This document shows, piece by piece, positions 33,446 through 37,913 of a stretch of 50,591 nucleotides of DNA (its first letter is position 1; each line of letters begins with the position of its first letter). The notes under the pieces were generated by a model, which was not told the DNA's origin, searched no databases, and saw nothing but the letters and a program-made list of their open reading frames with translations. The stretch is from the NCBI GenBank assembly GCA_021818715.1, contig JAKATN010000007.1, forward strand, positions 1 to 50,591. Direction: 5' to 3'. The position numbers and the translations under genes are program-made. This stretch comes from Thermoplasmata archaeon (GTDB lineage: Archaea > Thermoplasmatota > Thermoplasmata > Thermoplasmatales > Thermoplasmataceae).

Positions 33446-34534
33446 TCAGAAGCGAGAGCTTCTGATGTCTATTCTTACATTCATCGGGCCCTCGGCATCT
33501 TTGTCGATTACCTGCCCGCATTTCAGACAGGTGAGCGATCCGTCAGGGTTGATTTTATAAGTTACAGATCCGCAGGACGGGCAGGAACTGTTGATCCACG
33601 GGCTTATGGTGTGCCTCGGACTCCCATTACTCATCGCCCTGGCAGTTGCATTTCTTACGCGAAGACTAGCGCCATCCCTCATGAAAGTGAAGAGTGCGGC
33701 GAAAATGGAAGTGATGCCTATGAAAGCCCATACCAGGATGAACAGGCCAACTGACAGCGAAACCGTGGAAGCGTATTGTGAGGTTCCGGCTGCACTCCAT
33801 GCTGATACTATATCCATTGCCATAAGCGAAAAGTAGAGCATGGCAGCGGCGGGCAACCCGAATCTGATGAAACTGTAAGTGATCACGAAGAATTCCAGTG
33901 CCAGCACCATGTAGGAGAACACGTCTCCGCCGTTGGAGAAAAAGAACAGCCCAAAAATCAGGGCGGCGGGAACCCATGCAATGGCAGCTATCCCTAGCGC
34001 TGGGAAATCACGGGGAACTATTCCAAAGACAAGTTTCCTCGCTGAAAGCCCGCCGGTCACAATCATGTAAAGTATTGCAACAGCAAGGATTGGAAGCAGC
34101 AGGAGTTCCAGGAATTCATAGGTGTTCTGGTATATGATAACCATAACGGTCGCAAGCGGGGTAGAACTGAATGCGGCTCCGGCTGGCGGAGGAGAGATGA
34201 ATACGGGCAGAGTCACGGTTAGCAGGAGGTTGCTCGATATGAGTATCGCAAAAACCCGCATGATAGCGAACCGCTCATATACTCCATCCCTTACTTCAAT
34301 GAAATAGTAGAGTACAGCAATAACAATTGGAATCCCGATTACTGAAGCCTCCATTAAAATTGGGGGGCCGCCGGCGTTTGAATAATATGGATTGTTGCGG
34401 ATTGTGAAAAGCGTGCCTGCAAGATCCGAGAATATCCCGTAGACGAAGTAGAGAGCTATTGCAACGGCCAGCAGAACCCCTGCCAGTCCGAAATACCTTT
34501 CTATCTTTCTTATCAGATCAGGGTGGAAATCCAT
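33446..34534 (-). CDS. Membrane protein with C-terminal zinc ribbon
   Basis: 362 residues. Eight or so hydrophobic helices lie between residues 14 and 300. The cytoplasmic tail carries a zinc ribbon with two CxxC pairs (CPSCG and CLKCG, about residues 325-345). I know of no named family with this combination. The ribbon could anchor a partner protein or nucleic acid at the membrane. It is 15 bases downstream of the AlaX-like gene and may be co-transcribed with it. Confidence 0.7.
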   Translation of the reverse strand: MDFHPDLIRKIERYFGLAGVLLAVAIALYFVYGIFSDLAGTLFTIRNNPYYSNAGGPPILMEASVIGIPIVIAVLYYFIEVRDGVYERFAIMRVFAILISSNLLLTVTLPVFISPPPAGAAFSSTPLATVMVIIYQNTYEFLELLLLPILAVAILYMIVTGGLSARKLVFGIVPRDFPALGIAAIAWVPAALIFGLFFFSNGGDVFSYMVLALEFFVITYSFIRFGLPAAAMLYFSLMAMDIVSAWSAAGTSQYASTVSLSVGLFILVWAFIGITSIFAALFTFMRDGASLRVRNATARAMSNGSPRHTISPWINSSCPSCGSVTYKINPDGSLTCLKCGQVIDKDAEGPMNVRIDIRSSRF

Positions 34535-34549: not shown

Positions 34550-35272
34550 TTACAGTGCAAGGTTGATTATCAACCTCTTGTTTATCTTTCCCTTCACCAG
34601 CGTTGTCTTTATCGTTATCTTTCCTATTTCTGAGGTGTTCTTCACCTGAATTCCCATGTCAAACTGGGTTGCCAGGCCAGGGATTTCCGTCACCCTTATT
34701 TTCTCGTAGTCGGGTATGCTGTTCTTGTTCAGGAACATCAGTGTCCCATTCCTGGCGAATTCTTCCTTTGAAATGTATCGGCTGGTTATCGGCAGGGCTG
34801 AAGCCATCTTTTCGTTCGCTGCAGCTTCGATATCCTTCACCAGTTCATCGCTAAGGTCCTTATCCGTAAGCAGGTCAATCCATGACTGATCATCATATGT
34901 TTCATTCATCCTCGTGAGGCATTTCAGTTTTTCATAAGCGATTCCCGCGACAAGAAACATTGCGCTCCTGAATCTCATGTGAATATGTCTTATGTTCCAG
35001 TCGATTACCTGTTTGACAGATTTGCCCGCTATGTCCTGGGGGTATGGATCATACAGGGACATAAGGTGGACAAAAAGTCCGTCGCTCCAGGCTTCTGCGA
35101 TAACAAACTCTTTTCCGTCTATGATCACCTTTCCCCTGTCGTTTGGTTGTCCGAAGCCTGTGGGAAAGAAAATGCTTCTATCAACGACCAGGTCCGTAAA
35201 TTCAACTTGTGTCACGGTGCTTATGCACTCCGTTTCATAGGGGCGATCCAGGTACAAGAGTTCTGTTGGCAT
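34550..35272 (-). CDS. AlaX-like protein lacking the zinc-binding residues
   Basis: 240 residues with the fold signature of alanyl-tRNA editing (AlaX) proteins: YLDRPYETEC near the start, VVDRSIFFPTGFGQPNDRG (30-47) and the terminal VKNTSEIGKI (210-219). The two His of the normal H-x-x-x-H site align with R102 and F106 (RSAMF), and the Cys and His of the C-G-G-T-H site align with D205 and Q209. All four zinc ligands are therefore gone. It is probably not an ordinary Ser/Gly-tRNA-Ala deacylase. It may be a binding protein, a pseudo-enzyme or a new activity. The TATA-like AATAAATA 24 bases upstream favours a leaderless ATG. Confidence 0.75.
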   Translation of the reverse strand: MPTELLYLDRPYETECISTVTQVEFTDLVVDRSIFFPTGFGQPNDRGKVIIDGKEFVIAEAWSDGLFVHLMSLYDPYPQDIAGKSVKQVIDWNIRHIHMRFRSAMFLVAGIAYEKLKCLTRMNETYDDQSWIDLLTDKDLSDELVKDIEAAANEKMASALPITSRYISKEEFARNGTLMFLNKNSIPDYEKIRVTEIPGLATQFDMGIQVKNTSEIGKITIKTTLVKGKINKRLIINLAL

Positions 35273-35292: not shown

Positions 35293-35300
35293 GTATTTAT
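35293..35300. promoter_or_regulatory. Shared divergent TATA element for alaX-like and pcc1 genes
   Basis: A short A/T element (GTATTTAT on plus, AATAAATA on minus, 35293-35300) sits 24 bases before the AlaX-like ATG on the minus strand and about 22 bases before the ATG at 35318 on the plus strand. One box may therefore serve both directions in a 36-base gap. Confidence 0.45.
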
Positions 35301-35308
35301 TGATTTTT

Positions 35309-35545
35309 ATGAAAGCTATGGAACTGTCTCTTGAATTGGTTATCCGTAATCTCAGGGTAGACTGCAATGACGTCCTGTATTCACTAAAACCGGATAATGC
35401 TGGTATGATCGATGGGGAATGCATGGAAAATAATTCCCTGAAATTTACAGTCACTAGAATTAAGCCCTCGTCAATCTACTCACTCACTGAGGAACTGGTG
35501 ATGAGCGTAGACGAGGTTGAGAAAATGGGAGAAGGCTACTCCTGA
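35309..35545 (+). CDS. pcc1: KEOPS-complex subunit Pcc1-like protein
   Basis: About 78 residues. The pattern LYSLKPDN followed by short strands and a helix ending SVDEVEKM fits the CTAG/Pcc1 fold, the small dimerisation subunit of KEOPS, which adds the threonylcarbamoyl group at A37 of ANN-decoding tRNAs together with Kae1, Bud32 and Cgi121. Those partners are not in the window. The start is either ATG 35309 or ATG 35318. The latter suits the TATA position. It ends ten bases beyond the stop codon of the convergent TFB gene. Confidence 0.72.
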
Positions 35546-36740: not shown

Positions 36741-36836
36741 ATTCCGTAAAAGTATTAATATTTTTGTATTTAATTAGAATTGTTAAAATTTAGGCTCCGT
36801 CAGCATTCCCCGTGCATCAATCAACCTTTTATCTTC

Positions 36837-37913
36837 ATGCAGAATAATGAAACCATGATAGACAGGGAACTGGCCAGCTTCGTGAAAAACCTGATGCCTA
36901 AAGAAAGGAGATCAGGCAACAACGCAAAACCCGTTTCTGTCTGGATGGAGATGGACAGGATCCGTGGTTATCCGGAGCAGACCTGCGTCGCGATTTTCAG
37001 GACTACAGGATGCTCCTGGTATAACTTTTCCTCCTGCAGCATGTGCGGATATTTCAACGATATTTCCAGCACGGTGACAGAGGAGAATCTCATGAAGCAG
37101 ACGGATGAGATCATCCACTATCTGGGAAATACCGAAACACTGAAGGTGTTCACCTCGGGAAGTTTCCTTGACCCCATTGAGATGCCGGTACGGGCAAGGG
37201 ATTATTTCTATGACTCCATAAGCGGGAAGATTGACAAGCTTCTGGTGGAGTCCAGAACCGAATACATCACGCCATCGAATCTTTCCCCGATTAAGGACCG
37301 GAAATTGAAAGCCAGAATTGCAATTGGGGTAGAGAGCGCAAATGACGAGATAATTGCAAGGAGCATAAACAAGGGTAGCAGCTTTAACAAGTTTGTTACC
37401 GCAGCCAGGACCAGTAAGGAACAGGGCTTCGAGGTGAGAAGCTATCTTTTGCTAAAGCCGCCGTTCATGTCAGAGGCTGAAGCGGTTGATGACTGCATGC
37501 GATCCATAGCCCTTGTTGCCCCATACTCAACTGATATTTCGGTGAATCCAATGAATATACAGAAGAACACTCTTGTTGAATATCTTTGGAAAAGGGGACA
37601 GTACAGGCCGCCAAGGCTATGGTCCCTGGCCAGGATCCTTGTCTGGGCAGGCAGGAGCGGGTTCAACGTGGTATCTTATCCCACCGGGGGGAACAGGGAA
37701 AGGGGGGTGCACAACGATCTTCATGATGACAGGCTGCTGAATCTGATAGTCCAGTCTTCCCTGAGCCAGGGCTTCGATGAACTCGATAAATATATCCAGG
37801 CCTCTGACCTTTCCAGATATTATAATGACCTCGAGGTTGAAAATCTTCTCCCTGAGGAGATAGATTACCATAAGCTGATACACGAGATGTCCTATTCCAG
37901 AATCAGCGTATGA
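36837..37913 (+). CDS. Radical SAM archaeosine enzyme RaSEA-like
   Basis: 358 residues from ATG 36837; another ATG at 36855 and a TTG at 36780 are alternatives. The cluster motif is C59-x7-C67-x2-C70 (TTGCSWYNFSSCSMCGY), which differs from the usual CxxxCxxC and is the hallmark of the RaSEA/TIGR01210 family. RaSEA converts the lysine-modified preQ0 intermediate in tRNA to archaeosine at position 15. It depends on ArcS and TGT, neither of which lies in this window. ThiL follows ten bases after the stop. Confidence 0.82.
   Translation: MQNNETMIDRELASFVKNLMPKERRSGNNAKPVSVWMEMDRIRGYPEQTCVAIFRTTGCSWYNFSSCSMCGYFNDISSTVTEENLMKQTDEIIHYLGNTETLKVFTSGSFLDPIEMPVRARDYFYDSISGKIDKLLVESRTEYITPSNLSPIKDRKLKARIAIGVESANDEIIARSINKGSSFNKFVTAARTSKEQGFEVRSYLLLKPPFMSEAEAVDDCMRSIALVAPYSTDISVNPMNIQKNTLVEYLWKRGQYRPPRLWSLARILVWAGRSGFNVVSYPTGGNRERGVHNDLHDDRLLNLIVQSSLSQGFDELDKYIQASDLSRYYNDLEVENLLPEEIDYHKLIHEMSYSRISV

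Follow-up and report, generated by a model that had tools for sequence, protein, structure and literature searches.

Editing domains that have lost their catalytic site are already known. The AlaX-like domain of Plasmodium TrpRS, which is fused to the synthetase and related to type I (short) AlaX, has lost all four zinc ligands, with Asp, Ser, Asn and Val at the sites, and its authors assign it to tRNA binding (PMC3680381). The mitoribosomal protein MRPL39 resembles part of ThrRS and is a ThrRS descendant located at the polypeptide exit site (PMC4099522). Here we describe AlaXd, a 240-aa AlaX-M-like protein without three His zinc ligands, encoded at positions 34550–35272 (minus strand) of a 50,591-nt contig stretch from a Thermoplasmataceae genome, hereafter the window.

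The zinc-less AlaX described here is free-standing and family-wide, and it is kept beside an active AlaX and sometimes without one; the open papers searched contained no such protein. In every well-sequenced genome examined across an archaeal family, this proofreading fold persists with its catalytic metal site gone, even where no active AlaX was found, which makes AlaXd a clear example of an editing enzyme put to another use. It is also testable, as one small, well-folded protein with growable hosts such as Thermoplasma and Ferroplasma.

Homology and fold of AlaXd

The open reading frame, its coordinates and its strand are confirmed, as is the AlaX-type sequence claimed in a preliminary description of this DNA; the best NCBIfam match is AlaXM (NF040865; 154 bits, E 4.2e-45), followed by AlaRS models. 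The match is full length, with positions 1–233 of the 234 profile positions aligned. The score lies below the AlaXM equivalog cut-off of 300, a weak criterion here, since this genome's ordinary AlaX, at 278 bits, falls below it too. Among solved structures, archaeal AlaRS is nearest by sequence and AlaX-M second.

An AlphaFold2 model built on 57 orthologues (pLDDT 95.6, pTM 0.91) predicts an AlaX fold for AlaXd. Compared with AlaX crystal structures, as the preliminary description had proposed, the model matches AlaX-M entries 9iuw (TMt 0.86) and 2e1b (TMt 0.84). The best structural matches are to the editing region of archaeal AlaRS (PDB 2zze and 3wqy; TMq 0.83–0.88), which, unlike AlaXd, is part of a synthetase and has an intact zinc site. 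Mitoribosomal protein L39 is also among the fold-search matches, but those to AlaRS and AlaX are far stronger than those to L39 or ThrRS. We rejected a ThrRS-derived origin of the L39 type, which is defined by TGS and ThrRS editing domains; AlaXd matches AlaXM and AlaRS profiles instead.

AlaXd shares with AlaX-M the fold, the full length, the order of domains (GQPxD at the N-terminus, then editing) and many residues of the motifs GxxVxNTxEIG and IDWxxRY. It departs from AlaX-M in the loss of three His ligands, a third zinc column occupied by D or E, the low AlaXM score and its own set of invariant residues. The Plasmodium TrpRS domain likewise belongs among AlaX relatives that lack the HxxxH and CxxxH ligands, and tRNA binding was proposed as its role; AlaXd, by contrast, is free-standing, of AlaX-M type, and carries an invariant Arg and an acid. 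MRPL39 parallels the case proposed for AlaXd as a synthetase descendant with a related editing fold and a non-enzymatic place in translation; it derives from ThrRS and is part of the mitoribosome, whereas AlaXd matches AlaX and AlaRS. We dropped an attempt to place the serine-binding site of short AlaX on AlaXd because the alignment is too uncertain.

Zinc-site residues, retention and constraint

To read the zinc columns, AlaXd was aligned with 50 ordinary AlaX proteins of its order; the residues agree with the Arg, Phe, Asp and Gln earlier assigned to the His-His and Cys-His sites. Arg102 (codon 34967–34969, minus strand) occupies the column of the first His of HxxxH and is Arg in 57/57 full-length orthologues, and Phe106 (34955–34957, minus strand) that of the second His, which is F, Y, K or R in the orthologues and never His or Cys. 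The zinc pair HxxxH is thus absent. Asp205 (34658–34660, minus strand) stands in the third column, which is Cys in Pyrococcus AlaX-M, Asp in the order's ordinary AlaX and D or E in the orthologues. Gln209 (34646–34648, minus strand) replaces the last His, so that CxxxH (DxxxH in this order) is absent too; the orthologues have Q, N, L, H, D or Y here, with His in just 6 of 57.

The corresponding columns read H-H-D-H in 50/50 ordinary AlaX proteins and H-H-C-H in the AlaRS of the same genome (L003). Because all 50 ordinary AlaX have Asp for Cys, only three ligands are lost in AlaXd: the earlier claim of four holds for Arg102, Phe106 and Gln209 but not for Asp205, which is common to the order's ordinary AlaX. 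The ordinary AlaX loci of the order (L094–L113 and others) encode putative H-H-D-H zinc enzymes with Asp in place of the Cys ligand. Other His or Cys residues replacing the ligands, which had been named as a finding that would refute the loss, are not seen in the ligand columns. With three His ligands gone, the normal zinc-dependent deacylase mechanism should be dead, as had been supposed, and zinc-dependent deacylation was probably lost.

AlaXd was found in 70 of 77 Thermoplasmataceae genomes (one as a fragment), covering 18 of 19 genera, and in 35/35 of those with ≥90% completeness; the genomes without it, which include both of genus g19, are all ≤86% complete. Among 400 genomes sampled from the class it was not seen outside the family; in this sample, complete orthologues scored 359–409 bits against the family profile and every other AlaX ≤188. 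Incomplete orthologues scored 324 bits (C-terminally cut) and 245 and 194 bits (split over two contigs). A conserved-peptide scan of 84,980 species genomes, its sensitivity limited by the peptide patterns used, returned relatives only in Thermoplasmata records and one uncultured archaeon, among them Ferroplasma acidarmanus, Acidiplasma, Thermoplasma, Cuniculiplasma, Thermogymnomonas and E-plasma.

In the tree the orthologues group as a single clade (SH-aLRT 100), and AlaXd has a single origin. Whether relatives have also lost the ligands had been posed as a question for phylogeny, and the loss is common to the whole family. All 57 full-length orthologues have open frames and share the zinc-site pattern, which is therefore neither chance nor a sequencing error. 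The stem of the clade measures 1.16 changes per column and inner branches are shorter. The forks between this clade and the family's ordinary AlaX are open in the tree, so that the duplication date is not fixed.

AlaXd is under purifying selection, with dN/dS of 0.014–0.10 among pairs with finite dS. Further residues invariant across the 57 orthologues include E24, F25, T26, N44, D45, D64, G65, S72 and D75, as well as R121, T125, Y126, W131 and D133; ordinary AlaX has Thr at R121 and Arg at W131. Conserved positions are enriched around the old zinc site, defined by columns that we picked from AlaX motifs (20/50 columns vs 26/190 elsewhere, p 8e-5). The pattern as a whole suggests rapid change at first and tight constraint thereafter. 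Because AlaXd is kept under strong selection in every well-sequenced family genome despite the His loss, it very probably has a second job. Co-variation of positions 106 and 205 was rejected as proof of contact: their states pair well, but on the tree position 106 changed once and position 205 twice.

What the old pocket may do

We tentatively favour, and consider quite possible, a reading of AlaXd as a retooled, non-hydrolytic protein that binds the tRNA acceptor end or aminoacyl-tRNA. An AlaX-M duplicate would have been adapted to a new role close to the base of the Thermoplasmataceae, giving up the zinc site, and presumably its deacylation, while the fold was kept and the pocket stayed under tight constraint. 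The residue pattern suggests that this pocket still binds something, with Arg102 and the acid at 205 pairing as a salt bridge that would fill the position of the zinc. The pocket may hold, but not hydrolyse, a tRNA acceptor end or aminoacyl-tRNA, making AlaXd a carrier, protector or sensor, perhaps acting together with, and touching, the zinc-ribbon membrane protein encoded next to it.

An AlaX fold without zinc ligands is one mark of a non-hydrolytic, tRNA-binding AlaX relative, and AlaXd has this combination. With a mean pI of 5.1 and a net charge of −8.6, AlaXd is acidic, which counts mildly against RNA binding, although the family's ordinary AlaX is acidic too (pI 5.7). The pair of alternatives offered in the preliminary description, a tRNA-binding factor or a different hydrolase, still seems the right one. 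The serious rivals to tRNA-end binding are a zinc-free enzyme and a docking protein of the ribosome or membrane.

As an enzyme, AlaXd would be a zinc-free deacylase or another hydrolase with a new substrate, its catalysis coming from the remodelled pocket (R102, the acid at 205, R121, W131 and N44–D45) or from the tRNA itself. We regard this as unlikely, if still worth serious attention. It would fit the pocket columns, which are re-specified rather than relaxed, but the chemistry at 106 and 209 differs among orthologues, and we know of no member of the AlaX/AlaRS editing family that works without its His ligands. A precedent in another fold is a DTD-fold proofreading module, which is reported to deacylate without catalytic side chains (PMC4491819).

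Gene neighbourhood and other editing enzymes

A gene for a 362-aa membrane protein (33446–34534, minus strand) lies 15 nt downstream of AlaXd on the same strand and is a conserved neighbour in the family. Its product has a C-terminal zinc ribbon, CxxC...CxxC (33518–33583, minus strand), with four Cys invariant in 37 sequences, bearing out the earlier mention of an adjoining membrane protein with its own zinc ribbon. By our count it is the next co-directional gene after AlaXd in 38 family loci. It lies ~700–860 nt further on in 9 more, with an opposite-strand gene between in the loci read out, and in Thermoplasma it is convergent with AlaXd. Pfam gave weak zinc-ribbon matches and nothing else, and the structural model (pLDDT 82.0) had no PDB match at E ≤ 0.001.

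This linkage bears on the possibility that AlaXd has a structural or docking role, within the ribosome or in a membrane complex with the zinc-ribbon protein, and that its pocket no longer serves tRNA ends. The co-directional arrangement in the 38 loci speaks for such a role, as does the appearance of L39, with its place at the polypeptide exit site (PMC4099522), in the fold search. Against it, the conserved residues cluster round the old zinc site, the arrangement is not co-directional in Thermoplasma, and sequence divergence is much faster in the membrane protein (14–23% identity outside the genus) than in AlaXd. The MFS and AbrB genes beyond the membrane protein are also kept in the block, and the linkage is therefore partly background synteny. 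On balance we judge a docking role rather improbable. A further proposal strikes us as a long shot: AlaXd and the membrane protein would make up a family-specific unit that recruits charged tRNA or the translation machinery to the membrane, the former editing pocket serving as a non-hydrolytic aminoacyl-tRNA holder.

On the other side of AlaXd, a Pcc1-like gene, named from sequence reading, is divergently oriented (35300–35545, plus strand). The preliminary description had pointed to it as another tRNA-modification gene; the gene is there, but as a functional hint it fails, its adjacency being confined to the window's own genus, and we rejected Pcc1 as a functional partner. Pcc1 and TFB lie upstream only in that genus. 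In the other genera looked at, the upstream genes, judged by sequence, look like folylpolyglutamate synthase (together with an Orc1/Cdc6-like gene), an ABC transporter or TruA; Thermoplasma has a presumed thiamine-diphosphate enzyme there. Close by in the window is a further tRNA-modification gene, that of the archaeosine radical SAM protein RaSEA (36780–37913, plus strand; TIGR01210, 354 bits, above the cut-off); the listed ORF starts at TTG, and translation may in fact begin at a more internal codon.

The genome of the window also encodes an ordinary AlaX (G000:C42:70814-71515), 30% identical to AlaXd, and among the 35 high-quality family genomes AlaXd is the better retained of the two, being present in all, against 33 with ordinary AlaX. 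No ordinary AlaX turned up in G030 (96% complete, 8 contigs), in the three remaining genomes of genus g6 or in G050 (91% complete), yet AlaXd is present in G030–G033 and G050 (in G032 as a fragment only). AlaXd is therefore not simply a companion of AlaX, and an obligate AlaX/AlaXd pair was rejected because G030 yielded no ordinary AlaX. Genus g6 (G030–G033) is of E-plasma type.

The same genomes bear on the idea that AlaXd is a regulatory partner in mixed dimers with ordinary AlaX or AlaRS, which we consider improbable. Paralogues of one fold do co-occur in most genomes, as mixed dimers would suggest, but AlaXd stays where ordinary AlaX was not found, an argument that does not touch dimers with AlaRS. 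A decaying pseudogene or assembly error, which loss of the catalytic ligands taken by itself would fit, is refuted by the open frames, dN/dS far below 1, clade-wide invariants and presence in every high-quality genome, and we give it practically no weight.

AlaXd as a stand-in for a missing editing enzyme was likewise rejected. The AlaRS of the window's genome has an intact H-H-C-H editing site, that of G030 keeps HSSTH and CGGTH, and the 668-aa ThrRS of the window's genome (L185) carries HSTAH and CTGPH, both appearing intact, in its N-terminal part. This ThrRS arrangement looks bacterial-type.
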